Shown here one piece after another: positions 1-13,629 of a stretch of 64,000 nt of DNA. The notes under the pieces were generated by a model. That model saw only the letters and a list, made by a program, of their open reading frames with translations, made no database searches and was not told the DNA's origin. The translations under genes and the position numbers were made by a program. Numbering within the stretch: position 1 is the first letter of the stretch; each line of letters starts with the position of its first letter. Origin of the DNA: Micromonospora sp. WMMD1082. GTDB lineage: Bacteria > Actinomycetota > Actinomycetes > Mycobacteriales > Micromonosporaceae. The stretch covers positions 6,986,501-7,050,500 of the forward strand of contig NZ_JARUBM010000002.1 in assembly GCF_029626175.1 (NCBI RefSeq), given 5' to 3'.

Positions 1-183
1 CACCGGTCGGTCCGGGGCGGACAGCTCGGCCAGCGACGGGTCCGGCTCGGACTGGTCGTACACCACGACCACCTCGACCGGCCCGGGATAGTCCTGGGCG
101 ACGATCGCCCGCACCGCGGCCCGCAGCAGTTCCGGGCGGTTCCGGGTGGGCACGACGGCGCTCACGCTCGGGTACGGGCTCAC
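1..183 (-). CDS. Family 2 glycosyltransferase, N-terminal fragment
   Basis: Only the first 61 codons lie in the window; the gene continues past the left edge. The start is a GTG whose last bases overlap the stop of the gene before it (GTGA), so the two are probably translationally coupled. The N-terminus reads VSAVVPTRNRPELLRAAVRA followed by a hydrophobic strand ending VVVVYDQSEPD. This is the usual first beta-strand and nucleotide-binding loop of GT-A fold GT2 enzymes, which move a sugar from a nucleotide-sugar donor. As the last visible gene of the exopolysaccharide operon it probably elongates the repeat unit. Donor and acceptor cannot be judged from this fragment. Confidence 0.8.
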   Translation of the reverse strand, partial: MSPYPSVSAVVPTRNRPELLRAAVRAIVAQDYPGPVEVVVVYDQSEPDPSLAELSAPDRPV

Positions 184-887
184 CGGTTCCGCCTTCCGTT
201 CGGGCCATTCGGGCCGGGCCGACGCCACGGCCGCCACCAGGGTCGGTGGTGCCGCCCCGCGGCGGCGGCCACCAGGTCCTCGACGATCACTCCCACCCGC
301 CGCACCGCGGCACGCCGCCCGTTGGCCGCCTCGGCGTCCACGGCGACGGTGAAGCGCGACCGGTCGGCGAGACCGGCGGCCAGTGCGTCCAGCAGCTCCC
401 GCCGGGACTCGCAGAGGGCGACCAGGCCGGCCGCGCCGAGCCGGCGGGCGAACAGCTGCTGGTGGTCGTCGACGTGCTCGCCGCGCGTCGGGTCACGGGG
501 CACCACGATCGGCAGGTGGCCGTGCCGGCGGGCCTCCAGAATGGTCGCCGGCCCACCGTGACAGACCACCAGGTCGGCCCGGGCCATCGCCGCCTGCAAC
601 TCGGCGTGCCCGAGGAACGGCACCGCCTCGGGCAGGCCGGCGACGCGGGTGTGCCCGTGCTGCACGGTCAGCACGACCTCACCCGCGGCCTCGCCGTGCC
701 ACTCCCGCAGCCAGTCGACCAGCCGGTCGAAGGGATGCTTGTCGGTGCCGACGGCCACCAGCAGCTGGATCCGGCTGTCGGGGCGCGGCTCACGCGGCTC
801 CGGTATGCGTACCCCTGGTTCGTCCCGGGCGGCGCGGGGCCGCACCGGCGCGACGCGGTGCGCGTCGCCCACGGCCTCGCCGCTCAC
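180..887 (-). CDS. Alg13/EpsF-like glycosyltransferase subunit (GT28 C-terminal domain)
   Basis: About 235 residues. The start is the GTG overlapping the stop of the upstream Alg14-like gene (GTGA). A charged leader of about 40 residues precedes the domain: LLVAVGTDKHPFDRLVDW (about residues 42-60), then VCHGGPATILEARRHGHLPIVVPR (written here in part; about 108-131), the donor-binding half of GT28 enzymes such as Alg13, PssE and MurG. In the family this half binds the UDP-sugar and works only when docked to an Alg14-type membrane partner, which is encoded immediately upstream. The pair most likely adds an early sugar to a lipid-linked polysaccharide intermediate at the inner face of the membrane. 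The Arg/Pro-rich C-terminal tail is probably disordered. Confidence 0.82.
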   Translation of the reverse strand: MSGEAVGDAHRVAPVRPRAARDEPGVRIPEPREPRPDSRIQLLVAVGTDKHPFDRLVDWLREWHGEAAGEVVLTVQHGHTRVAGLPEAVPFLGHAELQAAMARADLVVCHGGPATILEARRHGHLPIVVPRDPTRGEHVDDHQQLFARRLGAAGLVALCESRRELLDALAAGLADRSRFTVAVDAEAANGRRAAVRRVGVIVEDLVAAAAGRHHRPWWRPWRRPGPNGPNGRRNR

Positions 888-1366
888 AGCAGCGTCCCCA
901 CGACGGTGGCCTCCGGGTACTGGCGGCGCTGCTCCTCCCACTGCACGAGCATCGCCGACAGGAACGGGCGGCACAGCCGGGCGGTCAGCGTCGGCGTGTC
1001 GATCCGGTCGTAGACCTCGATGTAGACGGTCGGGATGCGCCGGAGCCGGGCGAGCACGACGAACGGCACGGCCACTCCCGCGCCGGTGGTGACCACCGCG
1101 GCGACCCGTCGCCGGCGCAGCACCCGGGCGGCCAGTACCGCGTTGCGCAGCAGGTTGCCCAGGTGGCGGGTGGTCGGATGGTACGCCCGTACCACGTCCT
1201 CACCGGCGAGCAGGGACAGTGCCTCAGGCGTGTCGAAGGTGACCCAGCATCGCCGCCAGGTCTCGTACCAGGGCCGCAGGGCCAGCAACTGGGCCAGGTG
1301 CCCGCCGCTGGATCCGACCAACAGCAACAGTGGTTGTTCCTCGGGCTCTTCCATCAAGGTGTCCAC
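884..1366 (-). CDS. Alg14/PssD-like glycosyltransferase membrane-anchor subunit
   Basis: About 160 residues if translation starts at the GTG at 1366, which has GGGGAG four bases upstream; an in-frame ATG at 1354 is the alternative. The protein shows LLLLVGSSGGHLAQLLAL near the N-terminus, VVTTGAGVAVPFVVLAR in the middle and TVYIEVYDRIDTPTLTARL after it, the signature of Alg14/PssD/EpsE-type subunits. These anchor and activate an Alg13-type catalytic partner, here the next gene, joined by a 4-base overlap. In eukaryotic N-glycosylation and rhizobial or lactic exopolysaccharide synthesis the equivalent pair forms one enzyme. A 73-bp gap separates it from the kinase-like gene before it. Confidence 0.82.
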   Translation of the reverse strand: MDTLMEEPEEQPLLLLVGSSGGHLAQLLALRPWYETWRRCWVTFDTPEALSLLAGEDVVRAYHPTTRHLGNLLRNAVLAARVLRRRRVAAVVTTGAGVAVPFVVLARLRRIPTVYIEVYDRIDTPTLTARLCRPFLSAMLVQWEEQRRQYPEATVVGTLL

Positions 1367-1439
1367 GCGACTCCCCACAAGTCCGCTTGGAATTTCGGTC
1401 AGTGTCACGCCACAGCAGAAGGTGGCCGGTGCGAACCGA

Positions 1440-2684
1440 TCAACCGCCACCTCGTCTCTCGATCGTGTCCAACAGCGCGGGGTGCAACGCCGCGTTCCAG
1501 CCGGCACCGGCGTCGGCCAGGCGCCAGGTGCGCAGCCACATCTCCACCAGGTAGGCGTCGGCCACCAGCCGGCGGCCGGGGGCGTCCAGCCCCAACCGGT
1601 CACCGTGGCGGTCCAACCAGCGCCCGACCTCGTCGGCCGCCGCCGCGACCGGCTCACCGCGCAGCACGACGGCACGCTGGAAGGCGTCGTGGGCCAGGTC
1701 GAACCCCACCGGCACGTCCGCGCCGCTGTGCTCCCAGTCCCAGGCGATGACCTCACCGGCGTGCCGGCCCAGGTTCCACGGCACCCAGTCGCCGTGCCAG
1801 TGGCCGAACTCGACGGCGACCTCGCCGTGCCGGCGGGCCAGCGCGGCGACGGCCGCCACGGCACGCTGACCGGCCGGGTCCGTGGCGGCGGCCCGCCGCG
1901 CCTGCGCCGCCAACCGGTCCAGGAAGGGCGAGCCGCCCAGCGGCCGGGGCTCGGCCGGCGGGCGGCCCCGGCGAGCCACCGCGAGCAGCGCCCCGAGGTC
2001 GGGCGCGGCGGCGGCCGGCACCCCACGGACCCGGGTCGGCAGCGGCTCCACCACGGCGACCACCTGACCCGCCCAGGTCAGCTCGGTGAGCAGCCGGGGC
2101 GTGCCGGGGTGCCCCGCCAGCCCGGCCACCTCGCCCAGCGCCGCCGCCTCGGCGGTGACCAGCGCCCGCGTCGCGTCGTTCCAGCCGATCTTCGCGTATC
2201 CGCGGGGCACGCCGGAGCGGTCGAACAGTTGCAGGGTCGGCTTGTGGTTCGGATCCGGCGGGCGCACCCCGAAGGCCGCGTACATCGGCGTGCCGAGCAC
2301 GGCGGCGACCCGGTCGGCGAGCAGCGCCTCCGCCGGATCGAGCCCGCGGGGCAGCGCGACGGTCAACACCGGGAACGGCGCCCGGTCCACCACACCGGCC
2401 CGGGCCGCCACGCCGAGCAGTGCCCGCGCGGCCCGCACCTTCGGCGGGCGCAGGGCGTTGTACGCCAGCAGCGCCGCCGCCGCGACCCGGGGCGAACCCA
2501 ACGGCAGCAGGAACCGCGCCCGGGCGACCGACGGCACGACCGCGTAGCGGGCCACGACGGTGTGCCCGGCCGGCGGGGCGGCGTCCACGGTCACCGCGAC
2601 CCGGTGGTCGGCGAAGACCGCCCGGGTGACCCAGCCCAACCCGTCGTCGCGGCAGCGGGGGTCGGCCGTCGCCGACGCGGTCAC
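1440..2684 (-). CDS. APH-fold (aminoglycoside phosphotransferase-like) small-molecule kinase
   Basis: 414 residues, starting at a GTG that overlaps the sulfotransferase stop (GTGA). The N-terminal 140 residues are Ala/Val-rich and unrecognised. From about residue 150 a protein-kinase-like fold appears: GYAKIGW (Lys165, likely ATP-binding), the Brenner loop HGDWVPWN at 297-304 (catalytic Asp299, metal-binding Asn304) and WDWE at 315-318 in place of DFG. This family phosphorylates hydroxyls of sugars, choline, aminoglycosides and similar compounds. Its place between polysaccharide genes makes a resistance role unlikely. Phosphorylation of a sugar precursor or of the polymer is plausible but inferred. 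Confidence 0.72.
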   Translation of the reverse strand: MTASATADPRCRDDGLGWVTRAVFADHRVAVTVDAAPPAGHTVVARYAVVPSVARARFLLPLGSPRVAAAALLAYNALRPPKVRAARALLGVAARAGVVDRAPFPVLTVALPRGLDPAEALLADRVAAVLGTPMYAAFGVRPPDPNHKPTLQLFDRSGVPRGYAKIGWNDATRALVTAEAAALGEVAGLAGHPGTPRLLTELTWAGQVVAVVEPLPTRVRGVPAAAAPDLGALLAVARRGRPPAEPRPLGGSPFLDRLAAQARRAAATDPAGQRAVAAVAALARRHGEVAVEFGHWHGDWVPWNLGRHAGEVIAWDWEHSGADVPVGFDLAHDAFQRAVVLRGEPVAAAADEVGRWLDRHGDRLGLDAPGRRLVADAYLVEMWLRTWRLADAGAGWNAALHPALLDTIERRGGG

Positions 2685-3574
2685 GCGGCCCGGTCCGGCC
2701 AGTCGAGCCGCAACCCCAGCCGCTGCCGCAGCGCCTCGTTGTGCGGGCGGTAGTACGCCGTCAGCTCGGCCCGCAGCGCCGGCTCCAGCGGCGCCGAACG
2801 CCGGTCGTTGTAGACCCGGAAGTCGGGCAGGTCGAAGGGGGGCAGGCCGAGAAAGTCCAGGGTGCGCCGGTAGGCCGCCCGTGCGTCGCGGTAGAGCTCC
2901 TCGCTGGGCAGGAAGAGGATCCGCGCCCGGTCGAAGCGCGCCAACCACGGTTCCAGATGCTCCAGGTACCGGCCCCGGGCCCGGTAGGTGTACCAGTCGT
3001 AGCGCTCGCTGAAGTACTCCGGTTCGGCGATCAGCCGCTCCCGCTCCCCGGCCGTACGCTCCGGCTCGGCGGCCAGCGCGGCGGCGAAGTCCAGCGGCTC
3101 CACGCCGTTGGTCCGCCGCTCCTTCCAGTGCGAGTACGCCCGCTCGACCGGGTCGCGCAGCAGCACGATCAGCCGCACCGAGGGCATCAGCGTGGCGACC
3201 CGCTCGGCGGCCAGGGGGTGGAACATGTAGAGCGGTGCCGCCTCGCCGACCCGCACCGGGCCGCCGTGGCGGCTCTCCAGCACCTCCCGCTGCCGCACGG
3301 TCGGGAAGTGCGAGCGATACCACGCCTCGCCGCGACTCCAGTTCTCCTCGAAGTAGTGCGAGGACTTCGTGTTCCAGGCCGGGAAGAGCCGAGGCACCAG
3401 CGGGTGCTGGATGAGGTAATTCCACAGCGAGGTGGTGCCGCCCCGCTTGGTACCGATGATGAGGAAGTCCGGCAGCGGCCGGCGGTCACTGGTGCGTACC
3501 CCGTAGTCGACGAGGCTTTCCCGTAGCCGGCTCGTGACCTGGGTCGGCACCAACTGCTTCACCCGGTCCCGCAT
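2681..3574 (-). CDS. PAPS-dependent sulfotransferase, polysaccharide-modifying type
   Basis: 297 residues from the ATG at 3574; an in-frame TTG nine bases upstream is closer to an AGGTGAG ribosome site and is possible. The 5'-phosphosulfate loop is at residues 38-51 (LIIGTKRGGTTSLW) and the 3'-phosphate-binding segment at about 134-150 (RLIVLLRDPVERAYSHW), both hallmarks of the Sulfotransfer_1 family related to heparan and carbohydrate sulfotransferases. The enzyme would move sulfate from PAPS to a sugar hydroxyl or amine. There is no signal peptide, so it acts in the cytosol before export. It sits between the flippase and the kinase-like gene, which supports sulfation of the repeat unit. A carbohydrate acceptor is inferred. 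Confidence 0.85.
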   Translation of the reverse strand: MRDRVKQLVPTQVTSRLRESLVDYGVRTSDRRPLPDFLIIGTKRGGTTSLWNYLIQHPLVPRLFPAWNTKSSHYFEENWSRGEAWYRSHFPTVRQREVLESRHGGPVRVGEAAPLYMFHPLAAERVATLMPSVRLIVLLRDPVERAYSHWKERRTNGVEPLDFAAALAAEPERTAGERERLIAEPEYFSERYDWYTYRARGRYLEHLEPWLARFDRARILFLPSEELYRDARAAYRRTLDFLGLPPFDLPDFRVYNDRRSAPLEPALRAELTAYYRPHNEALRQRLGLRLDWPDRAA

Positions 3575-3590
3575 GGACGACAAGACGAAC

Positions 3591-5201
3591 TCACCTGCCC
3601 TTCGACGTGCGTGGCGGGGCGCCGGCCGGCGCCCCGCCACGGATCTGCATCATGGTCACCCGGATGCCGGACCGCACCCGGGGCAACGTCAACAAGCCGA
3701 CGCAGCCGGCGGCGAGCACGGCCACCGTCGGCACCAGCCCCGTGATCCCCCGGCCGGCCACCGCCAGACCGGCGACCGAGGCCAGGCCGACCCCGCCCAC
3801 GGTGGCCGCCGCCGCGGCCAGCATCCGGGTGTCGACCAGCCGCTGGCCGACCACCAGCCGGGCGAACGTGGCGGCGCCGAGGTTCTCGGTGACGATGCCG
3901 GCGGCCCAGGCCACCGCCGCGCCGGTCGCCCCGTGCCCGGGAATCAGCGCCAGGCCGAGACCGACCGTGACCAGCAACCCGGCCAGTGCCGCCACCAGGT
4001 GCAGGCCGCTGCGCCCGCCCATCAGCAGCATGCTCTGCACGTTGCCGACGCCCGTGTTGACCAGCATCGCCAGCGCGAGCACGGTCATCGCGGCGGCGCC
4101 GGCGGTGAACTCCGCGCCGAACAACGCCAGGAAGGCCGGCGCGAAGACGGCGAGCAGCAGGTACACCGGCCAGGAGAGCACCAGCCCCCAGGTGGTCAGC
4201 TGCCGGTGCACGGCCGCGGCGGCGGCCCGCTCGCCGCGCCCCAGCAGCCGCGACAGCTGCGGGGAGACCGCCACGCGCAGCCCCTGCATCGCCAGTTGAC
4301 CGGCGAGGACGTAGCGGCCGACCGCCCCGAAGACCCCGGCCTCGGCGGGGCCGGCCAACGCCGAGGTGAGCAGCACGCCGATCCACATGCTGCCGGCGTC
4401 GATCGCCGCGGAGGCGGCGCGGGGCAGCGCGAAACGCCAGAACGTGGACCAGTCGCCGGGCTCCGGACGCAGCCGGGCGCCGGCACCCACGCCGAGTGGG
4501 CCGGCGACCAGGATCAGGCACACCAGCAGGGCCACGGCGGCGGGCACCAACCAGCCGGTCATGCCGGCCAGCAGCCCGCCGCCGACCAGCACCGCCGCAC
4601 CGACCAGCAGCGGCCGGGCGACCGGCAGCAGCAGGAACTGCACCGAGACGTAGGCCCGCATCGGGCGTACGCAGCGCACGACGGCCAGCAGCAGGTTCAT
4701 CGCGACCACCACGGGCACCGCCGCGAAGGTCACCACCAGCAGCGGCCCACCCGCCGGCCCGAGGAGTCGACCGGCGAGCGGCCCGGCGGCCAGCGCCCCG
4801 CCGACCGCGACCAGCGCGGCGAGCAGCAGCGGCGGCACCAGGGCGACCGGCAGCACCCGGGCCGCGTCGCCGGTCACGCCGGCCCGCCGCCGGGGCAGTG
4901 CCCACATCAGCCCGGTCTCCGCGCCCAGGGTGCAGACCGCGGCGGCGACGGTCACCACGCCGATCGCGGCGAAGAACGCGCCGGAGCCGGAGGTGCCGTA
5001 GCCACGGGTGATGACGATCGCGAGCACGAAGCCGAACAGCCCGCTGGTCGCCGCGCCGAGCAGCCCCGCGACCCCGCTGCGGGCGCTGCGCCGGGTCTCG
5101 GCCGCGCTGTCCACCGTGGCCAGGGCCGGACCCGCCGCCGAGCCGACGCCGGGCGCGCGGCCGGGCCCCTCCCCCGCCGGGGGGCTGGTGGTCGCGGTCA
5201 T
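3591..5201 (-). CDS. Wzx-like polysaccharide flippase (MATE/MOP superfamily)
   Basis: 536 residues, starting at the ATG of an ATGA overlap with the polymerase gene. After a disordered Pro/Ala-rich leader of about 40 residues there are roughly 14 hydrophobic segments, beginning SGVAGLLGAATSGLFGFVLA, with few charged residues between them. This is the layout of polysaccharide transporters of the MOP superfamily. Such proteins move undecaprenyl-linked repeat units from the inner to the outer leaflet of the membrane. Its position next to Wzy-like and Wzz-like genes supports this; MurJ-like lipid II transport is unlikely in that context. The sulfotransferase start follows 16 bp downstream. Confidence 0.82.
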   Translation of the reverse strand: MTATTSPPAGEGPGRAPGVGSAAGPALATVDSAAETRRSARSGVAGLLGAATSGLFGFVLAIVITRGYGTSGSGAFFAAIGVVTVAAAVCTLGAETGLMWALPRRRAGVTGDAARVLPVALVPPLLLAALVAVGGALAAGPLAGRLLGPAGGPLLVVTFAAVPVVVAMNLLLAVVRCVRPMRAYVSVQFLLLPVARPLLVGAAVLVGGGLLAGMTGWLVPAAVALLVCLILVAGPLGVGAGARLRPEPGDWSTFWRFALPRAASAAIDAGSMWIGVLLTSALAGPAEAGVFGAVGRYVLAGQLAMQGLRVAVSPQLSRLLGRGERAAAAAVHRQLTTWGLVLSWPVYLLLAVFAPAFLALFGAEFTAGAAAMTVLALAMLVNTGVGNVQSMLLMGGRSGLHLVAALAGLLVTVGLGLALIPGHGATGAAVAWAAGIVTENLGAATFARLVVGQRLVDTRMLAAAAATVGGVGLASVAGLAVAGRGITGLVPTVAVLAAGCVGLLTLPRVRSGIRVTMMQIRGGAPAGAPPRTSKGR

Positions 5202-6550
5202 GCCGGCACCACCGCCGCCGGTTCCGGCGGCCGGACGGTCGGCGGCGGGACGCGTCGCTCCCGCTCGGTGAGCGCCATCGCGAAGGCGATCGCGAAGAAG
5301 GCGACCGCGAGGTTCTGGTTCGCCATCCCGTAGAAGGGCACCTGCACCAGGCAGATCACCGCGACGACGGAGAGCCACTGCCCGGCCGCCGAGGTGGCCC
5401 GGGCGCAGACCACCGCGGCGACGACGAACCAGGCCAGGAAGCACAGCAGCGCCGGTACGCCGTGGCTGAACAGCACCATCCACAGCTGCCCCTGGGTGCC
5501 GATCGGCGCCTCGGCGGAGACGGTGTCCACGTCCATCGGCGCGCCGTAGCCCAGCCACGGTGAGTCGCCCACCCGGCGCAGCACCTCCGCGTAGAGCGAG
5601 AGCCGGTCGGTGTTGGTGTCGCTGGACTGGACCCGGTTGCCGATCAGCTCGGCGACCGGGATGAACAGGGCGGCGAGCCCGCCGATCACCACCACCCCGC
5701 AGATGGAGGCGGCCACCCGCGTGTTGCCGCGCAACGCCGCCCGCACCCCCAGCACGGCCAGGCCCACGCCGAGGCTGAGGAACATCGCCCGGTTGAGGGT
5801 GAGGAACGCCGGGACCAGCGACAGCGGCAGCGTCACCAGCAGTGCCCACCGCAGCAGGCCACGGCGGCGCAGCATGGTGTACGCGACCACGCACGGCAGC
5901 GTCATCGCGTATGCGCTGCCGTAGGTGTTGGTGTACGCGTACGGGGCGGCCGGGCGGTAGATCGGGTTGAGCGACCTCGCGCTGTACTCCGCGGTGGCGA
6001 GATGGACCATGTCATGGATGAACGGGGCGCGGGCCACACCGGCGGGGAGCAGCATCTCGACCGGGGTGGTCAACTCGAAGCGTGGTACCAGCACGCCCAG
6101 CCAGCCCAGGGCGACCAGCCCGAGCCAGAACACGCACAGCGGCGCCAGGACGGCCGCCTGGTCGGGGCGCTCCCGGGCGACGGTGTAGACGTAGACGGCG
6201 ACGATCAGCGCGGTGAGGTAGAAGGAGAGCCGCAGCGCGAAGGTCAGCAGCGAGGTCGGCGACGCCAGCCGGGTCGCGCTGGCCACCACGAGCGCCAGGA
6301 ACAGCAGCCAGATCCCGGCGGCGGGCGGCAGCGGCACCCGACCCCGGGTGGCCAGCAACGTGAACAGCAGGGCGCCCAGCAACGGCCAACCGAGATAGAA
6401 GGCGCCCGCCAGCCACCAGAGCGGGACCAGCCCGAACATCGCCGCCAGCGGCCACAGCGGCAGTCGCGGCGGCGCGGGCGGCAGGGGTCGCGCCGCGGGG
6501 CTCACCGGCCGGGGCGGCTCGGTGGTGGCCGGGGCGCGGGTGACCGGCAC
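5198..6550 (-). CDS. O-antigen ligase/Wzy-like polysaccharide polymerase
   Basis: 450 residues from a GTG three bases after the stop of the co-polymerase gene. The protein has about 11-12 membrane segments with one long extracytoplasmic loop around residues 165-210, containing RAPFIHDMVHLATAEYSARS. A second soluble stretch near 310-340 contains SSDTNTDRLSLYAEVLRRVGDSPWLGYGAP, where the D-R-x-x-x-Y and W-x-G-x-G elements are typical of Wzy_C/O-antigen ligase proteins. These join lipid-linked repeats on the outer face of the membrane. In this operon it would polymerise units delivered by the downstream flippase, with chain length set by the upstream co-polymerase. Confidence 0.82.
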   Translation of the reverse strand: MPVTRAPATTEPPRPVSPAARPLPPAPPRLPLWPLAAMFGLVPLWWLAGAFYLGWPLLGALLFTLLATRGRVPLPPAAGIWLLFLALVVASATRLASPTSLLTFALRLSFYLTALIVAVYVYTVARERPDQAAVLAPLCVFWLGLVALGWLGVLVPRFELTTPVEMLLPAGVARAPFIHDMVHLATAEYSARSLNPIYRPAAPYAYTNTYGSAYAMTLPCVVAYTMLRRRGLLRWALLVTLPLSLVPAFLTLNRAMFLSLGVGLAVLGVRAALRGNTRVAASICGVVVIGGLAALFIPVAELIGNRVQSSDTNTDRLSLYAEVLRRVGDSPWLGYGAPMDVDTVSAEAPIGTQGQLWMVLFSHGVPALLCFLAWFVVAAVVCARATSAAGQWLSVVAVICLVQVPFYGMANQNLAVAFFAIAFAMALTERERRVPPPTVRPPEPAAVVPA

Positions 6551-6553
6551 GTC

Positions 6554-8155
6554 TCAGCTCCGCCCGCTGCGGCACAGCACGAACCCGAGCGGGTTCACCC
6601 CGGCCGCGCGCAGCCGCCCGGCGAGCCGGCGCAGGTCGGCCTGGCGGGTCCGGTCGCGTTCGACCACGACCACGGCGGTGCCCTGCCGGGCCACTGCCAC
6701 CCCCCGCTCGTCGGCCTCGGCCGGCGGGGCGTTGTACAGCACGAGGCGCTGGTCGGCGCCCTGCCGCCAGGTGCCGAACCGGATGCTGCCGGCGCCCACC
6801 ACCACCTGCTCGTTGCCGGTCAGCCGGCCGTTCTCGGCGCCGACGACGGTCTGGGTCACCCGGGGCAGCGTGAGCGTGGCCTCCGGGTCGGTCGAGGCCC
6901 GCGCGCCGATCGGGTGCGGAGAGGGGCGCCGGGTGATCACTTCGGTGGGTCCGTCGTCGGTGTCCGTCGGGGGCGTACGCGGCTTGGGCACGCCGGGTCG
7001 GGTGGGGTCGATGCCGGCGGGCAGCCGATCCCGGTCGGTGAGCACCGCGGCCCGCAACCGGTCGGTCCGGCCGCTGTCGTCGGCCACGAACACCTCCCGC
7101 CCGGCCACGGCGAGCGCGACCGCGAGCCCGGCGGTGATCGCGGTGGCGTCCTCGCGGGCGGTCACCACGGCGACCCGGGCGGGTTGGCGCACCCGCTCGG
7201 CGACGGCCATCGCGACGTAGCGCACGTCGGAGTCGACCACCCGACCCCGCAGCCCACGGCTGCGGATGGTGCCCAGCAGCGGCAGACCGGTGCTGTCCGT
7301 CGCGTCGGCCACGGTCCGGATCCGCCGGTCCACGGACTCCCACACGAAGGCGAGCACCAGCCCGATCAGCGTGCCGCCGAGCAGCCCGCCGGCCAGCAGC
7401 AGCGCCGGGTTGACGGCCGACGAGGTCAGCGCCAGCTCGGCGCTGCGGGTGACCCAGCCCGGGTTCACGTCGACCGCGGCGATCTCGGTCCGCGCGGAGT
7501 TGAGCTGGGTGAGCTGGTTGTTGATCCCGCCGAGTTCGGCGACCGCGGCGTTGGCGGCGGCGGAGTCCCGGGCGTTGTTGATCCGCCGCTGCACCGCGAC
7601 CTGCTGCTCGACGACCTTGCTGATGCTGGCCTCGTACGAGCGCAGCATCTCCTCGCGCTGCTTCTCGTACATCGCGCGCCGGATATCCAGATAGCTCTGC
7701 GCGGCGAGGTTGGCGCCCTCGACGGCCCGGTCGGCGCGGCCCGCCTGGTAGACGAAGCGCAGGATCTGGCCGCCGGCGGGCACCTCCACCTCCAGGGCGT
7801 CGCGCACGGTGCGCTGGTCCGAGCCGAACGCCTCGGCCAGCTTCCCGACCACCTCGGTGCCGGTGGCGATCCCGCTCTCCACGTTCATGTTCACCGCCCG
7901 GTCGGCGGCGGCGCCGCTGGGCGTGAAGGCGTCAGTCACCACCGGACGGACCGCCACCACCGCGCTCGCCGTCACCGCGGCCGGTGCCAGCAGCACGTAG
8001 CCGGTCGCGCCGAGCAGCCCGCAGGCGGCGGCCGCCGCGACCAGCCGGATCCGGTGCAGGGGTACGCGCACCACGTCGGTGATCGTGACGGTGCGGGACG
8101 ACCCGGCGGCGGTGCCGCCGTCGCCGGTCCAGGCGCTGGGAGTGGCATCAGTCAT
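6554..8155 (-). CDS. Wzz-type polysaccharide co-polymerase with degenerate BY-kinase-like domain
   Basis: 533 residues; the ATG lies inside the last codons of the acyltransferase gene (8-bp overlap). There are two membrane segments at about 38-58 and 249-271, with a coiled extracytoplasmic region between them, as in Wzz/CapA chain-length regulators. The cytoplasmic part has a Rossmann-like layout of a bacterial tyrosine kinase (RVAVVTAREDATAITAGLAV, about 327-346), but the expected GxGKT/S is replaced by REDATAI and the Walker A' strand reads VFVADDSGRTD. There is no C-terminal tyrosine cluster. ATP hydrolysis and autophosphorylation therefore look lost. It probably regulates chain length as a scaffold. 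Confidence 0.8.
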   Translation of the reverse strand: MTDATPSAWTGDGGTAAGSSRTVTITDVVRVPLHRIRLVAAAAACGLLGATGYVLLAPAAVTASAVVAVRPVVTDAFTPSGAAADRAVNMNVESGIATGTEVVGKLAEAFGSDQRTVRDALEVEVPAGGQILRFVYQAGRADRAVEGANLAAQSYLDIRRAMYEKQREEMLRSYEASISKVVEQQVAVQRRINNARDSAAANAAVAELGGINNQLTQLNSARTEIAAVDVNPGWVTRSAELALTSSAVNPALLLAGGLLGGTLIGLVLAFVWESVDRRIRTVADATDSTGLPLLGTIRSRGLRGRVVDSDVRYVAMAVAERVRQPARVAVVTAREDATAITAGLAVALAVAGREVFVADDSGRTDRLRAAVLTDRDRLPAGIDPTRPGVPKPRTPPTDTDDGPTEVITRRPSPHPIGARASTDPEATLTLPRVTQTVVGAENGRLTGNEQVVVGAGSIRFGTWRQGADQRLVLYNAPPAEADERGVAVARQGTAVVVVERDRTRQADLRRLAGRLRAAGVNPLGFVLCRSGRS

Positions 8156-8690
8156 GGAACTTCTTCGCTATCTGTTGTGGATTGCCGATGACCACGACCC
8201 CGGGCGGCACGTCCGTCCGGACCACCGTCGCGGCACCCACCACGCTGTCCCGGCCGACCCGTACGCCCTTCATGACCAGCGCGTGCGCGCCGATCCACAC
8301 GTTGTCCTCGACCACGATCGGTGCCCGGCTGGCCGCCGTCGGCGGGTCGTGCCGTAGGGCCGGGGGGAGGTTGTGGAAGTCGTTGTCGAGCAGTTCACAG
8401 TTCGACAGCAGGCACCCGTCCCCGACGGTCACCGAGGTCCAGGCGCCGATCCAGGTCGCGTTGAGCAGGCAGTTCGCGCCGACGCGCACCTCGCCGTGAC
8501 CGGCGAAACGGACCAGCTTGTTCAACCGGGTGTTCTCGCCGATGCTCACCCGTACGCCGCGACGCAGCCGGATGCGTCCCCGGATCTCCACGCCCGCGCC
8601 CAGGTGCAGGCGCGGGTAGCGCAGCTGATACCAGCCGCGCTTGACCGCGAAGATCGTACGCACCACGAGTCCCCGCCGGATGACGGTCAA
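8148..8690 (-). CDS. Left-handed beta-helix O-acyltransferase (LacA/NodL/CysE-like)
   Basis: 180 residues from a TTG at 8690, chosen because GGGGAGG lies four bases upstream; an in-frame GTG further in is possible. The protein is made of hexapeptide repeats (VEIRGRIRLRRGVRVSIGEN, then VTVGDGCLLSN, IVVEDNVWIGAHALVMKGVR, VGRDSVVGAATVV) and ends VIGNPQQIAKKF. This is the usual acetyl-CoA-binding beta-helix with its C-terminal cap. The family acetylates or otherwise acylates sugars. It is the first gene of the compact exopolysaccharide run and probably decorates the repeat unit with acetyl groups. Acyl donor and acceptor are inferred. Confidence 0.85.
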   Translation of the reverse strand: MTVIRRGLVVRTIFAVKRGWYQLRYPRLHLGAGVEIRGRIRLRRGVRVSIGENTRLNKLVRFAGHGEVRVGANCLLNATWIGAWTSVTVGDGCLLSNCELLDNDFHNLPPALRHDPPTAASRAPIVVEDNVWIGAHALVMKGVRVGRDSVVGAATVVRTDVPPGVVVIGNPQQIAKKFHD

Positions 8691-8710
8691 CGAGCCTCCC
8701 CACCTCCAGC

Positions 8711-8737
8711 GGGCCGGCGGCGGAGCGCCACCGGCCC
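8711..8737 (-). terminator. Hairpin between beta-propeller gene and exopolysaccharide operon
   Basis: Two 12-base arms (8711-8722 and 8726-8737) pair with one mismatch around a 3-base loop. The hairpin lies after the stop of the beta-propeller gene and 21 bp before the acyltransferase start. It could end the upstream transcript or act as a leader hairpin of the operon. There is no U-tract, as is usual in this phylum. Confidence 0.4.
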
Positions 8738-8779
8738 GACCTGCACAAACTATCGAGGCATCATTACGAACAGTGAACG

Positions 8780-10774
8780 CTACTGAACGGAAAAGAACGT
8801 GGCGGGCACTGACCAGGTCAGCTCGGGTGTCGCGGACGCGATGAGTGTCGAGGAGGCACCGTCGACCACGGCGGCGGGAGCGGCGGTCGGATCGAACGCC
8901 ACGCTGCGCAGCGATCCGTCGGTGGCGCCGTGCACGATCCGGCCGTTCACCCAGGCCATGCCGCGCACCGACGACCAGGTGACGCCCGTGGTCGGCAGCA
9001 CGAACTCGGTGGCGCCCAGGTAGTTGCCGTCGATCTCGAAGTAGCGGTAGTAGAGGTTGTTGGCGCCGCTGCGGGTGTAGTAGAGGCGGCCGTCGAGGAA
9101 GAACGCCCCGGTCAGCGACGCCGGGTTGTACCAGTCGTTGTAGCCCGACGCCTCCCAGGGCACGCCGATCGTCGCGCCGTTGAACAGCGAGATGTCGATC
9201 CGGCTGCCGGTCGGGCTGCCGGAGACCACCCGCGACCAGTAGATCCGGTCGTCGACCCGCCAGGTCGCCCCGGCGCCGGTGTAGTTCGGCTGGCTCACCG
9301 TGGTGGCGGTGCCGAGGCTGGCCCCGTCGAACGGCACCTTCGCCACCTGCCCGCTGCCGGCGTTCAGGTAGAGGTGGCCGCTGCTGGCCGTGGGCGGGTT
9401 CTTCGGCGTGATGGTGCGCCCACCGCTGAGCGGGAACATGCCGAGCCGGCCGTGGTACTCGTTGCCCATGCCGTCGGAGTTGTGCCCGAAGTAGAGACCG
9501 TCACTGCCCCGCCAGAGCACCGGCACGGTCGACCCCCAGGAGCTGGCGCCGGAGGGCAGGGCGGAGCCGCCGCTGCGGCGCGGGTTCCAGTTCACCGGCA
9601 TGCCGGTGGCCGGGGTGACCGCGCCGATGCCCAGCCGGTCGATCGCGCCGTTGCCGGCCCGGTCGCTCGCGTTCGGGTTGTTCAGCCAGCGGAAGTGCCC
9701 ACCGAGGTAGATGACGTTGTCGGCCACCTCGACCGAGGTGATCGTGTCGTTACCGGTGTAGTTGACCCAGGTGGCGACCTGGTTGGGGCCCCGGTCAGCG
9801 GTCTCGAAACGCACCAGCGCGTCGCAGTACGCGGCCGGCCAGCCAGCGCCGCCGTTGGTGCCGGCGACGAACCAGGTGCCGTCCGCGCCGAAGCGCACGT
9901 CCTGCACGTAGTGCACGAACGTCGCCGGTGCCGCGCAGGGCGGCACGAACCGCTCCGTGCTCCAGTCGATCACGCTCGGCGTGCCGGTGAGGTCGACCAG
10001 GGCCATCTGGTTGCGGGGCAGGTCGTTGACGTAGAGGAAGTTGCCACCCACGACGAGGGTGCCGCCGTCCGGCGAGACGTCGATGGTCCAGGCGTACATG
10101 CTGGTGCCGTGCCGGCCGACGCTGGTGTTGATGTTGAAGGTGGGGTCGATCGCGCCGGTGGTCGCGTTGAGCCGGCCGAGCCCGGCGTGCGCGGTGCCGT
10201 TGAGCCAGTTGAACGCGCCGGCCACGTAGAGCCAGTTGCCGTGCAGCACCAGGTCGCGGACGTTGCCGCCGTCGGAGCGGCCGACCCAGCTGTCGACGAT
10301 CATCCCGGTGGCCGGATCGAGCGCCACCAGGTTCCGGCGGGAGATGCCGTTGACGTTCTTGAACGCCCCGCCGACGATCAGCGTCCCACCCGGGCCGGCG
10401 ATGAGGGCGTTGACCGCCCCGTCGAGCACCGGCAGGAACGCGGTGGAGATGGTCCCGGTGCTCCGGTCGTACGCGAAGAGGTAGCTGCGGGAGATCCACG
10501 CCGAGCCGACCGTCTGGCGGATCTGGGTGAAGCTGCCGCCCACGAAGACGGTGTTGCCCACCTGGGCGAAGGCGCGGGCCTCGCCGTCCCGGGCGTGCGG
10601 GGTCTGGTCGGCCGGGTTCGCCGACACCAGGGTCGCCGGCCCCGGCACCGGCACCACCGCCGCCGAGGTCGCGGTGGGCACGACCAGCACGGCCGCAGCG
10701 GTCACCAGCGCGACGGCTGCAGCCCGGAATCGGCACCGACGGGTAGGACGCCACAGGAAGGAGATTCTGGGCAC
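8780..10774 (-). CDS. Secreted beta-propeller protein with delta-60-like repeats
   Basis: 664 residues from the GTG at 10774, which has GGAGG six bases upstream. An Arg-rich N-terminus and a hydrophobic stretch ending PTATSAAVV form a signal peptide (about 1-40). The mature protein repeats blades with V/L-G/A-G-x-F followed by xxVNGxxRxxL, as in VGGSFTQI, VGGAFKNVNGISRRNLVALD, VAGAFNWLNGTAHAGLGRLN, VGGNFLYVNDLPRNQMALVD and LGGHFRWLNN. These resemble delta-60 (DUF5122) propeller repeats. No catalytic residues are recognisable. It may bind extracellular polysaccharide or act in adhesion; that rests only on its position beside the polysaccharide operon and the glycosidase gene. Confidence 0.75.
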   Translation of the reverse strand: MPRISFLWRPTRRCRFRAAAVALVTAAAVLVVPTATSAAVVPVPGPATLVSANPADQTPHARDGEARAFAQVGNTVFVGGSFTQIRQTVGSAWISRSYLFAYDRSTGTISTAFLPVLDGAVNALIAGPGGTLIVGGAFKNVNGISRRNLVALDPATGMIVDSWVGRSDGGNVRDLVLHGNWLYVAGAFNWLNGTAHAGLGRLNATTGAIDPTFNINTSVGRHGTSMYAWTIDVSPDGGTLVVGGNFLYVNDLPRNQMALVDLTGTPSVIDWSTERFVPPCAAPATFVHYVQDVRFGADGTWFVAGTNGGAGWPAAYCDALVRFETADRGPNQVATWVNYTGNDTITSVEVADNVIYLGGHFRWLNNPNASDRAGNGAIDRLGIGAVTPATGMPVNWNPRRSGGSALPSGASSWGSTVPVLWRGSDGLYFGHNSDGMGNEYHGRLGMFPLSGGRTITPKNPPTASSGHLYLNAGSGQVAKVPFDGASLGTATTVSQPNYTGAGATWRVDDRIYWSRVVSGSPTGSRIDISLFNGATIGVPWEASGYNDWYNPASLTGAFFLDGRLYYTRSGANNLYYRYFEIDGNYLGATEFVLPTTGVTWSSVRGMAWVNGRIVHGATDGSLRSVAFDPTAAPAAVVDGASSTLIASATPELTWSVPATFFSVQ

Positions 10775-10938
10775 GCTGCGCCTCCAGAGTGGACGAGAAT
10801 GCACGTAGCGTGCCCGGCCCACCCTGGAGGGCAACATCCACCGATTGGGCGGACGGTGAATCCGGAAACGGACAACCTCGCCGACGATCGGATCCCCGAC
10901 AGTCGCCGTGACGACACCGATCCCTGGCTCACCTCAGC

Positions 10939-12648
10939 TCAACGGCCTCCTCCTGTCGGCTGCCGCAGGTAGGCGTCCCGTCCGGCGGCGGCGAACCCGG
11001 CCAGCGCCGAGGCGTCCTGGTTCATGGTCATGTTGCAGGTGCCGGTCGTGCGCGTCATGCCCGGGGAGTTGAAGTAGTTCACCGCCTTGATCTTCGGGTG
11101 GGCCTTCAGCGCCGCCGGGAACTCCTCGAACCAGCGCCGCTTGGCGTTCGGGTCGGACGCGTCGAAGTTGGTGCCGAACTCGGCCAGCATCCGTGGTTTG
11201 CCCGCACCGATGCCGTGCTCGTCGAGCCAGCGGTAGAACGAGCCCATCGTCGCGGCCGGCGTCTTCCAGAGCGTGCTGTTGTTGCAGACGTGGAAGTTGT
11301 ACGGATCCCAGGCCACCCAGTCGACATAGCGGTCACCCGGATAGAGGCCGGCGTACCGGTCGTAGTGGCCGGACCAGCCCATCATCGTCCACACCCAGAC
11401 GGCGTTGCCGGCCCCGGCGGCGGCGAACCGGTCGTGCACGTACCGCCAGGCCCGGACGAAGTCGGCGTCGCTGCCCTTGGCCGGCTCGTCCTCCGGCTCG
11501 TGGTCGAAGCCCATGAAGACCGGCTGGCCGATGGCCCGGATCCGGCCGGCGACCGCGTCGATGGTCGCGTCGTGCCCTCCACTGTAGACGTCCTTCCAGC
11601 TCAGCACCGTGCCCGAGGAGAAGATCCGGCTCTCCCAGGCGAAGAAGAGCAGCCGGCCCTCGCGCATCTGCTGCTGCTGGTAGGCGTCGGGGAAGGCACC
11701 GTTGCTGCCGGCGTTGGAGAAGTCGTGGTAGCGGTGGACGATGTCGAAGGTCCGTCCCACCTGCTTCTCCACATCGGCGAACACCTTGCCGTGGTCCCAC
11801 CCGGTGGCGGCACTGGACGGCGTGTACATCCCCCACCAGGCCCCGCAGGACGGGACCAGCTTCGCCGAGACCTTTCCGCAGCCGGCCGGATCGGCCGGCG
11901 CCGTGGGACTCGGCCGGACGGGCGTCGGGCTCACGCTGGGCGGGACGCTCGGCGAGGCGCTCGCCGCCACCGGCACCCGGGTGGGCACGGCCGTGGGCGT
12001 CGGCGCGGTGCTGGGTGCGGCCGAGGTCGCAGGCGTACCCACGCCGTAGCTGATCGACAGGCGGGGACGCAGATCCGCGTTGCGGTGCTCGGCCGAGGCC
12101 CAGTAGATGCGGGTGTCCAGCCCGGTCTGCGCCAGCGACAGCGTCCAGATGCCGTTGCCGGTGACCAGCGCCGAGACGTCCCACTCGTTGAAGCCCTTGC
12201 CGACCCCGTCGACCGCGTCCAGGGCCGCGCCGAGCGGTGCGGGTGCCGGCCGGGCGGCGCGGGCGTTGAGCCGGGAGTCGTGCGCGGTCACCCGCGCGTC
12301 GAACGCCTGCCAGGCGTGCACCCGCAGCGTCGCGCGGACCCGCACCGCGGTCGCCGGCACCGAGGTCACCAGGAAGGTGAGCACCGCCTCCCGGGCGCCG
12401 CGCGGGTTGCCGTCGCAGCGGGCGGGGCAGGTCGCCAGCGTCGTCTTGACACTGTTGTCGCCGTCCTGCGGCACCGTCGTGGCGGTGGTGTCGGCCACCA
12501 CCGGGATCGACAGGTCGTCGTCGGCGAGCAGGGGCACCATGGTCGCGCCGAGCCCCAGCGCCACCGTGGTGCCGATGACACCGAGCATCACGGCCTTACG
12601 CCGGGAGCCGCCGTGCCGGATGAGCCGGTGCAGTCCACGCCTGGCCAC
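10939..12648 (-). CDS. Membrane-anchored GH26-like glycoside hydrolase with DNRLRE/CBM-like module
   Basis: 569 residues from the GTG at 12648, five bases after GAGGAG. A basic N-terminus and one hydrophobic segment (about 18-40) give an anchor or uncleaved signal. Residues 48-215 look like a DNRLRE/CBM96-type beta-sandwich, with WDVSALVTGNGIWTLSLAQT and RPRLSISYG at its end. A Pro/Ser/Thr linker (about 218-265) follows, then a TIM-barrel-like domain with GFDHEPEDE (likely acid/base Glu) and RMLAEFGTNFD (likely nucleophile Glu), as in GH26 and related clan A enzymes. It probably cleaves a beta-linked polysaccharide outside the cell, perhaps trimming the polymer made by the neighbouring operon. 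The substrate is not predictable. Confidence 0.72.
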   Translation of the reverse strand: MARRGLHRLIRHGGSRRKAVMLGVIGTTVALGLGATMVPLLADDDLSIPVVADTTATTVPQDGDNSVKTTLATCPARCDGNPRGAREAVLTFLVTSVPATAVRVRATLRVHAWQAFDARVTAHDSRLNARAARPAPAPLGAALDAVDGVGKGFNEWDVSALVTGNGIWTLSLAQTGLDTRIYWASAEHRNADLRPRLSISYGVGTPATSAAPSTAPTPTAVPTRVPVAASASPSVPPSVSPTPVRPSPTAPADPAGCGKVSAKLVPSCGAWWGMYTPSSAATGWDHGKVFADVEKQVGRTFDIVHRYHDFSNAGSNGAFPDAYQQQQMREGRLLFFAWESRIFSSGTVLSWKDVYSGGHDATIDAVAGRIRAIGQPVFMGFDHEPEDEPAKGSDADFVRAWRYVHDRFAAAGAGNAVWVWTMMGWSGHYDRYAGLYPGDRYVDWVAWDPYNFHVCNNSTLWKTPAATMGSFYRWLDEHGIGAGKPRMLAEFGTNFDASDPNAKRRWFEEFPAALKAHPKIKAVNYFNSPGMTRTTGTCNMTMNQDASALAGFAAAGRDAYLRQPTGGGR

Positions 12649-12963
12649 AGACACTCCTCGTGACGGAACGGTTAACGCTGAGCAGCGTATCGACGTCCGC
12701 AACAGAGCGTGTTAACAACATCGCGACCTAAGCGCGTCTTAAGGGGCACCTAAGACGGACCTGGGGTGACAGCCGTTCACCCCTGCCATCCCGCACGACC
12801 ACCCACCGACAGACATCGAGACGCTCGCCCTCCACAGTAACGCTCCGTTACATCCTTGATTGCTGATCGAGAACAGGCAATACTTGGATGCCACTGGCCG
12901 GAGAAACAGCGACACGTCCAAGACGCTCTACCGGCATCAGAGAAACGACGGGGAGGAACTGCC
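12649..12963. other. Divergent intergenic region, 315 bp
   Basis: This gap separates the minus-strand glycosidase gene from the plus-strand peptidoglycan-binding protein. It is visibly less GC-rich than its surroundings. It holds an inverted repeat GTAACG-CTC-CGTTAC at 12837-12851 and a promoter-like pair just after it (separate entry). The glycosidase side contains AACGGTTAACG and GTGTTAACAAC motifs near 12670-12720, which may be regulatory. I see no further open frame with coding character. Confidence 0.6.
12837..12884 (+). promoter_or_regulatory. Likely sigma-70-type promoter with adjacent inverted repeat
   Basis: TTGATT at 12856-12861 and AATACT at 12879-12884 are separated by 17 bp, a good match to the housekeeping consensus and about 80 bp before the ATG at 12964. 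The inverted repeat GTAACG-CTC-CGTTAC (12837-12851) ends just upstream of the -35 element, where an activator or repressor could bind. Confidence 0.5.
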
Positions 12964-13500
12964 ATGCAAAGAACACGGTCGACTTCAACGCGCCCAAAAA
13001 GGTGGCGCGCGCTCGCCAGTTCCGCGTTCGCACTTGCGCTGCTAGGCTCGCTGCTCCAGCCATCGCCAGCACAGGCATCAGTGTCCCAGGGCTACATTGG
13101 TGGCGCTGGCGTCGTCACTGATGACTGGGGTGACGAAGGCACGCTCAGTCGGACGAGTTACGCAAGCAGCAGTGCCGTCGGGCTCTGGCAACGTGTCCTG
13201 GTCGCCGATGGACTCCTCACCCTCGCACAGGTCGACTGCGAGTTCGGGCCGGTCACGGAGTCGGCAACCAAGTCCTGGCAGCAGCGCAACAACCTAAGCG
13301 CGGACGGCAAGGTGGGCCCACTGACGTTCGGCCGGGCCGACGACCGGCTCAGCGACCAGGGAAATGGCTACGTATATTATCGCGGCTCCAACACCACCCT
13401 CGCCCTAAAGCGCATTGACGGCCGCTACCAGGTTCTTTTCTACAACGGTTACGATATCTGGTCGATCGCCTACTACACGTCGAAGTCTTCCTACTGCTGA
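12964..13500 (+). CDS. Secreted peptidoglycan-binding domain protein
   Basis: 178 residues with an excellent ribosome site (GGGGAGGA before the ATG). A basic N-terminus and hydrophobic core ending SPAQASVSQG form a signal peptide (about 1-37). Residues 60-115 (VGLWQRVLVADGLLTLAQVD, then FGPVTESATKSWQQRNNL and DGKVGPLTF) match the PG_binding_1 helical domain, which holds proteins on the cell wall. The last 60 residues, rich in Tyr (YVYYRGSN, FYNGYDIWSIAYYTSKSSYC), are unrecognised. No hydrolase domain is present, so it is a wall binder or carries an unknown effector domain. Codon third positions are AT-richer than in neighbouring genes, which hints at recent acquisition. Confidence 0.8.
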   Translation: MQRTRSTSTRPKRWRALASSAFALALLGSLLQPSPAQASVSQGYIGGAGVVTDDWGDEGTLSRTSYASSSAVGLWQRVLVADGLLTLAQVDCEFGPVTESATKSWQQRNNLSADGKVGPLTFGRADDRLSDQGNGYVYYRGSNTTLALKRIDGRYQVLFYNGYDIWSIAYYTSKSSYC

Positions 13501-13567
13501 CAACGCCGCAGGTCGTTGCACCATTTCAATATTCCTGTGCACTCCGTGGTAACCCCAGTAAGGTCGG

Positions 13568-13629
13568 GCCGCCCTCACCGCCTGACCGTCACCAGTTGAA
13601 GCCGGTGGCGGTCAGGCGGTGAGGGCGGC
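13568..13629. terminator. Bidirectional terminator overlapping the 3' end of aroE
   Basis: Arms of 26 bases (13568-13593 and 13604-13629) pair with a single mismatch around a 10-base loop. The right arm contains the last codons and stop of aroE (minus strand), so its coding end is also half of the hairpin. It lies between convergent genes and can stop transcription from both sides. Confidence 0.75.

Follow-up and report, generated by a model that had tools for sequence, protein, structure and literature searches.

We analysed a 64,000-nucleotide (nt) stretch of the 7.44 Mb genome of Micromonospora sp. WMMD1082 (the window; C2:6986501-7050500) and found at its left end a minus-strand exopolysaccharide operon in which a 3'-phosphoadenosine 5'-phosphosulfate (PAPS)-type sulfotransferase (ST) adjoins a kinase predicted to adopt the aminoglycoside phosphotransferase (APH)/choline-kinase fold. 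ST and kinase form a conserved pair with the flippase Wzx and the polymerase Wzy that reaches beyond the bacterial class, and the gene set is widespread rather than peculiar to this genome. The operon is a diverged variant of the kind of cluster just described as wps-1 in Actinoplanes missouriensis. We judge it fairly likely that it directs a Wzx/Wzy-dependent exopolysaccharide that is sulfated by the ST, with the kinase acting on the same saccharide or on the precursor of a substituent, and that the product has a role at the spore stage. The genes are as follows.

1..72, continuing at L003:17263-18072, minus strand: 5' end of a GT2 glycosyltransferase gene, 269 amino acids (Pfam PF00535, E 2.2e-13)
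180..887, minus strand: PssE/Alg13-like glycosyltransferase subunit (PF04101, 1.4e-14; NCBIfam PssE, 2.2e-17)
884..1354, minus strand: PssD/Alg14-like membrane-anchor subunit (PF08660, 1.4e-10; NCBIfam PssD, 9e-28)
1440..2684, minus strand: kinase of predicted APH/choline-kinase fold, 414 amino acids (invariant K165, E179, H297-G298-D299, N304, D316)
2681..3583, minus strand: PAPS-type ST, TTG start at 3583 or ATG at 3574 (PF00685, 3.2e-16)
3591..5201, minus strand: Wzx-like flippase, about 11 hydrophobic segments (hydropathy count; distant orthologues in Pfam)
5198..6550, minus strand: Wzy polymerase (PF04932 Wzy_C, 1e-8, above cut-off)
6554..8155, minus strand: Wzz-like chain-length protein with a long C-terminal region (TIGR01006, 8.4e-6, and TIGR03017, 1.4e-5, below cut-offs)
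8148..8690, minus strand: hexapeptide-repeat O-acetyltransferase of WbbJ/WcaF type, an optional gene (PF14602, 9.9e-12)
8780..10837, minus strand: DUF5122 beta-propeller protein (PF17164, 6.4e-10)
10939..12702, minus strand: GH26-like glycoside hydrolase, endoglucanase H relative (PDB 2v3g, E 4e-11, residues 311-546)

The original prediction had read this operon nearly correctly, and all the genes it named were confirmed on the minus strand. Its extent proved incomplete: the left window edge cuts through the GT2 gene, the operon extends past the window, and the DUF5122 propeller and GH26-like genes are situated upstream on the same strand. Read in the direction of transcription, the genes go from the GH26-like gene through the propeller, O-acetyltransferase, Wzz, Wzy, Wzx, ST, kinase, PssD and PssE genes to GT2 across the window edge, with mltG and aroE flanking the operon upstream and aroC, aroK and aroB downstream. 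The described prevalence of stop-start overlaps was borne out when the TTG start is used, since four of the seven junctions from acetyltransferase to PssE overlap (-8, -4, -4 and -4) and the remaining three are gaps of 3, 7 and 85 nt. The grouping is not due to chance, because the same genes recur together in other genomes; this synteny also ruled out a one-off gene assembly.

The ST scored above both the PF00685 and the PF13469 cut-offs. Its sequence relatives in the PDB at E 0.001 comprised the bacterial protein 3rnl and 13 heparan-sulfate enzymes (n=14), namely 3-O-sulfotransferases (3-OST) and N-deacetylase/N-sulfotransferases (NDST). An AlphaFold2 model built from 17 sequences (alignment A4, 16 of 64 intact STs plus that of the window; mean predicted local distance difference test score 85) was compared with known structures using Foldseek. 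Among the 50 matches listed, 3rnl ranked first and ranks 2-21 were all NDST1 or 3-OST (E 1e-12 to 2e-9), after which values dropped to 4e-6 or weaker for curacin/olefin-synthase, small-molecule and tyrosylprotein enzymes. As modelled, the ST matches carbohydrate enzymes of the heparan-sulfate NDST/3-OST type better than other sulfotransferases, and the contrary outcome foreseen in the original prediction, a resemblance to lipid or peptide enzymes only, did not apply. Aligned to 3-OST-3, the Glu of GEAAPLY (E111) lies opposite the Glu of EKTPSYF, the catalytic base of 3-OST. In 23/23 sequences (alignment A2, 22 of the 32 fetched family loci plus the window), G41, R44, the GTTS loop (G46-T47-T48-S49), E111, R140 and S148 were invariant; eight of these sequences belong to a wps-1-like group, and in those eight K43 is replaced by Gln. 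The ST therefore shares its fold and its aligned PAPS-site and catalytic residues with the heparan-sulfate 3-O-sulfotransferases and NDST, as expected of a PAPS-dependent carbohydrate sulfotransferase. It differs from them in being a single bacterial domain with a putative acceptor, at 20-26% identity in the Foldseek alignments. NDST-like N-sulfation is not favoured, because no deacetylase was detected among the operon proteins scanned.

An ST acting on a lipid, a peptide, a natural product or another non-polymer substrate would suit the wide substrate range of the PF00685 family and the missing substrate name of the best structural match, 3rnl. We regard this as improbable, since the next 20 structural matches are heparan-sulfate enzymes, the ST accompanies Wzx and Wzy in every family locus fetched and Wzz in nearly all, and ST distances run in parallel with those of Wzx and Wzy (see below).

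The kinase had no match in Pfam and NCBIfam scans or in a single-sequence PDB search. Searching the PDB with a profile of its alignment returned five weak matches, with choline kinase at the top (E 0.04), and we therefore turned to structure prediction. The predicted structure has an APH/choline-kinase fold, its best matches in Foldseek and VIA being small-molecule kinases. The catalytic residues (the K, E, HGD, N and D set of this superfamily) are invariant in 39/39 aligned sequences; alignment A1 held the kinases of 24 of the 32 fetched family loci plus the window, and A3 held 38 sequences plus the window, drawn from the 79 intact kinases of the 80 named loci (filtering for redundancy left 39, and L113, at a contig end, was omitted). 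By its model, the protein resembles kinases of small molecules and keeps a complete active site, in agreement with the APH-fold assignment of the original prediction. It shares the fold and the HGD...N...D motif with the superfamily of choline/ethanolamine kinases, APH and fructosamine-3-kinase, and differs in that no Pfam family matches it, that its substrate is putative and that about 110 residues precede the part to which most listed matches align.

A regulatory role, with the kinase as a protein-kinase-like switch on Wzz or Wzy, would agree with the IPR011009 protein-kinase-like domain assigned to its homologue WpsI (PMC13390465, available text). The C-terminal half of the Wzz-like protein (window 6554-7300) appears by eye to be a tyrosine-kinase (BY-kinase) domain that lacks Walker A, so that a separate kinase could have a place there; the loop at the Walker A position was also not conserved in eight homologues. 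IPR011009 is defined at superfamily level and includes APH-type folds as well. The best fold matches are small-molecule kinases, with protein kinase 7up8 appearing only at rank 41 of the 50 Foldseek matches listed and no protein kinase among the 50 VIA matches listed, and we consider a regulatory kinase unlikely.

The synteny check suggested in the original prediction gave a consistent picture within the Micromonosporaceae. An ST match was present in 232 of 250 family genomes; among the matches listed, at least 83 genomes had an ST at least 67% identical, the others 41-47%. In the 32 loci fetched by ST (20 of the first kind, 12 of the second), ST, kinase, Wzx and Wzy occurred together in 32/32 and Wzz in 30/32, the kinase of L051 being partial at the locus end. 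The kinase lay within about 11 kb of the ST on one contig in 50/50 comparable genomes and within 500 nt in 41 (four of the 54 kinases had no ST among the matches listed). Conversely, 16 of the 18 family genomes without ST also lacked a kinase match, the exceptions being G094 (87% complete), with a strong partial match, and G053, with a weak one. The ST profile that gave no match in these 18 detected the gene in 4/4 genomes known to carry it. Starting from the kinase, 67 of 80 named loci contained the ST. Many of the other 13 resemble loci with ST and kinase at opposite cluster ends, and their ST may therefore fall beyond the 10-kb flank. Such an opposite-ends subtype, with about 10-11 kb between the two genes, was seen in L047 and L050 and in genomes G003, G131, G141, G144, G147, G150, G159, G183 and G189. 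In L121, L127, L128, L130-L133, L137-L140 and L144, the kinase lies on the opposite strand from the ST and is still close to it.

Across the order, 69 of 298 genomes had a kinase match, 54 of these Micromonosporaceae. Loci were fetched from 14 of the 15 matching genomes outside the family (G357, E 4e-4, was left out), and these contained ST in 14/14, Wzx in 14/14 and Wzy in 13/14. Across the class, the kinase was matched in 80 of 394 genomes; from 66 of the 77 matching class genomes outside the order, with 11 left out as weak (E 1e-6 or worse), we obtained 67 loci, of which 61 had ST (20/20, 35/40 and 6/7), 56 Wzx and 60 Wzy. Outside the class, 21 of the genomes searched had a kinase match. 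Nine loci were fetched from eight of these 21 (E below 1e-50), with ST in 7/9; both ST-less loci are contigs, 3.4 and 6.7 kb long. The eight kinase-only loci outside the order are L211, L223, L225, L229, L239, L257, L258 and L266, several of them small contigs or contig ends. The large (7-10 Mb) genomes of family f33 and those of f8 among the unmatched genomes listed had no kinase match; we presume, as a guess only, that these are Streptomyces and Mycobacterium.

Pairwise distances of ST, kinase, Wzx and Wzy correlated at r 0.96-0.98, with permutations (200 a pair) reaching at most 0.25, in the 119 of 190 loci in which all five families were covered over more than 70%, some genomes being present twice. 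GT2 distances correlated with those of the other four at r 0.70-0.76. We take these values as a sign of co-inheritance, not of function, because host relatedness contributes.

Missing PAPS supply, another contrary outcome foreseen in the original prediction, was ruled out by CysD, CysN, a CysQ-like protein and an adenosine 5'-phosphosulfate (APS) kinase in the genome. CysD (441 bits against a cut-off of 397) adjoins CysN and the CysQ-like phosphatase, which scored below its equivalog cut-off. The APS kinase domain (189 bits) lies at C2:1.77 Mb in a protein that also has ATP-sulfurylase similarity, and a DeoR-type regulator gene adjoins this stand-alone gene (L001). Homologues of the protein accompany half of the wps-1-like loci: they were found beside Wzz in 4/4 added loci, at 74-75% identity to the protein of the window genome, and in 4/12 of those fetched earlier, giving 8/16 family wps-1-type loci overall. 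In other orders, 16 of 67 loci had a homologue (10/60 and 6/7), although some of these matches are partial, and L211, among the 16, has no ST. Sulfate activation thus clusters with such operons in separate lineages, which argues for real sulfation.

The closest described system is wps-1 of A. missouriensis (Tezuka and Ohnishi 2026; PMC13390465, used here from the available text). It encodes WpsA (GT2), WpsB (second sulfotransferase), WpsC (GT26), WpsD (DUF4262), WpsE (GH26), WpsF (methyltransferase), WpsG (Wzx), WpsH (heparan-sulfate-type sulfotransferase), WpsI (protein-kinase-like), WpsJ (Wzy) and WpsK (Wzz), and is adjoined by AMIS_7390, of the sulfate adenylyltransferase/APS kinase family. 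According to that text, sporangia were squashed when wpsA, C, G, H, I, J or K was deleted, and loss of AMIS_7390 caused a severe sporangium defect; wpsB and wpsD mutants looked normal, with fewer spores released by the former. The authors propose a sulfated polysaccharide from wps-1, awaiting verification. In the available part of an earlier sporangium-matrix paper (PMC12691653), the word sulfotransferase occurs 0 times.

The window operon shares with wps-1 the core of Wzx, heparan-sulfate-type ST, kinase, Wzy and Wzz, together with GT2 and GH26; homologues of this core also occur together in wps-1-like Micromonosporaceae loci, the sequences through which the comparison was made. One such locus, L248, carries a second sulfotransferase, DUF4262, GH26, methyltransferase, Wzx, ST, kinase, Wzy (in Pfam just below the cut-off), Wzz, ATP-sulfurylase/APS kinase and GT2; GT26 was not confirmed there, one candidate open reading frame having no Pfam match. 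A second DeoR-type regulator gene lies near its GT2 gene (L248:1696-2508). Given this gene set, the less identical of the two kinds of family ST very probably represents the wps-1 type, to which the window operon would be a diverged sister; the STs of the two types are 42-46% identical. Unlike wps-1, the window operon has the order Wzz-Wzy-Wzx-ST-kinase, includes PssD/PssE, an acetyltransferase and a DUF5122 propeller, and sits between aroE and aroC; among the operon proteins scanned there is no second sulfotransferase, methyltransferase, GT26, DUF4262 or sulfate-activation gene product.

Two other systems offer partial parallels. The xss cluster for synechan in Synechocystis 6803 likewise combines a Wzx/Wzy pathway with sulfotransferases, and sulfate was measured in its product; it differs in having two sulfotransferases, eight glycosyltransferases, a megaplasmid location and, as its kinase, the sensory histidine kinase XssS (PMC8205485, available text). 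NodH of Frankia cluster II is, by the title of the report (PMC5059922), also an actinobacterial carbohydrate-type sulfotransferase, in a Nod-factor setting rather than a Wzx/Wzy cluster.

Flippase, polymerase, chain-length protein and glycosyltransferases occur together in the operon, and Pfam/NCBIfam, hydropathy and orthologue scans support its reading as a Wzx/Wzy-dependent cluster. Wzx of the window has no Pfam match of its own, and both distant orthologues scanned (2/2) scored above cut-off for both PF01943 and PF01554. The Pfam match of Wzz is weak (E 0.072), and its matches to NCBIfam chain-length families (8e-6 to 1e-4) are every one below cut-off; a wps-1-type relative in L248 scored above the Wzz cut-off. 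PssE (63 bits against 120) and PssD (97.5 against 110) scored below their NCBIfam cut-offs, and their genes overlap by 4 nt. GT2 had a tblastn match in 79 of the 80 named related loci, not always to the same paralogue. No priming transferase was found among the operon proteins scanned, and four PF02397 genes lie elsewhere in the genome. All matches of the acetyltransferase to LacA/WcaF/WbbJ models were below cut-off, and we regard this gene as optional because tblastn matched it in 36 of the 80 loci. The DUF5122 propeller (73/80) and the GH26-like hydrolase, a relative of Clostridium endoglucanase H (57/80), each have one N-terminal hydrophobic segment and are probably secreted; the former is likely part of the cluster, and the latter belongs to it as a possible depolymerase that could cut the polymer.

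From these genes we infer a polymer, and with it sulfation, the kinase substrate and a role in Micromonospora; sulfate on the polymer is likely and phosphate plausible. A short repeat unit would consist of a priming sugar, whose transferase is encoded at another site, and of sugars attached by PssD/PssE and GT2. In the cytoplasm, the ST would move sulfate from PAPS to a sugar hydroxyl of the lipid-linked repeat, the kinase would add phosphate to this saccharide or to a small molecule from which a substituent is made, and acetate would be added where the acetyltransferase gene is present. Wzx would then flip the unit for polymerisation outside by Wzy and Wzz, and the GH26-like enzyme and the propeller protein may process or bind the product. 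By homology with wps-1, the polymer may serve spore-stage differentiation. The dense substitution that the original prediction drew from three tailoring genes is weakened: the genes are present, but the acetyltransferase is optional and phosphate transfer putative.

It is possible, though doubtful, that the kinase instead makes a precursor by phosphorylating a free sugar or a compound resembling choline or ethanolamine, with activation and transfer to follow. The operon proteins scanned included no nucleotidyltransferase or LicD-type transferase, and the kinase remains near the ST even on the opposite strand (12 loci, L121 to L144), which suggests a shared substrate. An ordinary unsulfated exopolysaccharide, with ST and kinase as inactive relics, would sit with our finding no polymer analysis, yet it is very unlikely, given that the catalytic residues of both enzymes are invariant over deep divergence and that their homologues are required for normal sporangia (PMC13390465, available text).

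Several points weigh against a sulfated polymer modified by the kinase. In the open-licence PMC literature, we found no chemistry for this or a homologous polymer. The kinase occurs without a detectable ST in 6/67 loci of other orders and 2/9 outside the class, and part of the distance correlation stems from two deep clades and from vertical descent, with some genomes counted twice. No sulfate-activation gene was found near window-type loci (0/20 and 0/80), an absence we treat as neutral because the genome carries the gene elsewhere. A saccharide as kinase substrate is putative, and Tezuka and Ohnishi call WpsI protein-kinase-like. By the available text of the same report, deletion of pathway genes could trap undecaprenyl intermediates and harm cells, and whole-cluster deletions were not complemented (PMC13390465); for both reasons, the mutant phenotypes fall short of proof of sulfation.

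The exopolysaccharide genes interrupt a shikimate gene run (mltG-aroE ... aroC-aroK-aroB; window 72-13612 and L003:14349-17168). With aroC present in 49 of the 80 named related loci, a count limited by flank length, this site appears common in Micromonospora and Salinispora. Between aroE and the GH26-like gene, a 909-nt stretch without an assigned gene (window 12703-13611) is a candidate regulatory region upstream of the latter. It is the largest of the gaps measured, and a single transcript from there through aroB is therefore possible.

The original prediction held that no sulfated polysaccharide is established in Micromonosporaceae. We found no chemically shown case in the open-licence PMC literature, in which topic searches returned nothing on a Micromonosporaceae sulfotransferase exopolysaccharide, sulfotransferase with Wzy in actinobacteria, or heparosan with a bacterial sulfotransferase, and, by title among the papers listed, no work on a sulfated polysaccharide of Micromonospora itself or an actinobacterial sulfated exopolysaccharide. 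A sulfated polysaccharide has, however, already been proposed for Actinoplanes, of the same family (PMC13390465, available text), and the finding is therefore not new in kind. What is new is how widely ST and kinase are paired, the assignment of the latter as a small-molecule kinase and the location in the aro operon. Bacterial sulfated extracellular polysaccharides are said, in the available texts, to come only from cyanobacteria (PMC8205485; PMC13390465). If the machine described here does sulfate its product, the trait would be common in actinobacteria, and the machine would supply a kinase and sulfotransferases of bacterial origin for the production of charged polysaccharides. Exceptions to a purely cyanobacterial origin are the sulfated sugars on the surfaces of rhizobia and marine proteobacteria. 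Glycosaminoglycan synthesis likewise relies on sulfotransferases and on a xylose kinase with a kinase fold. We put forward, tentatively and as less likely than not, an ancient machine of Wzx, Wzy, heparan-sulfate-type ST and sugar kinase, shared by many actinobacteria within this class and beyond it. Its polymer would carry two kinds of charge, from sulfate and from phosphate, and would be a bacterial counterpart of glycosaminoglycans serving spore-stage development.

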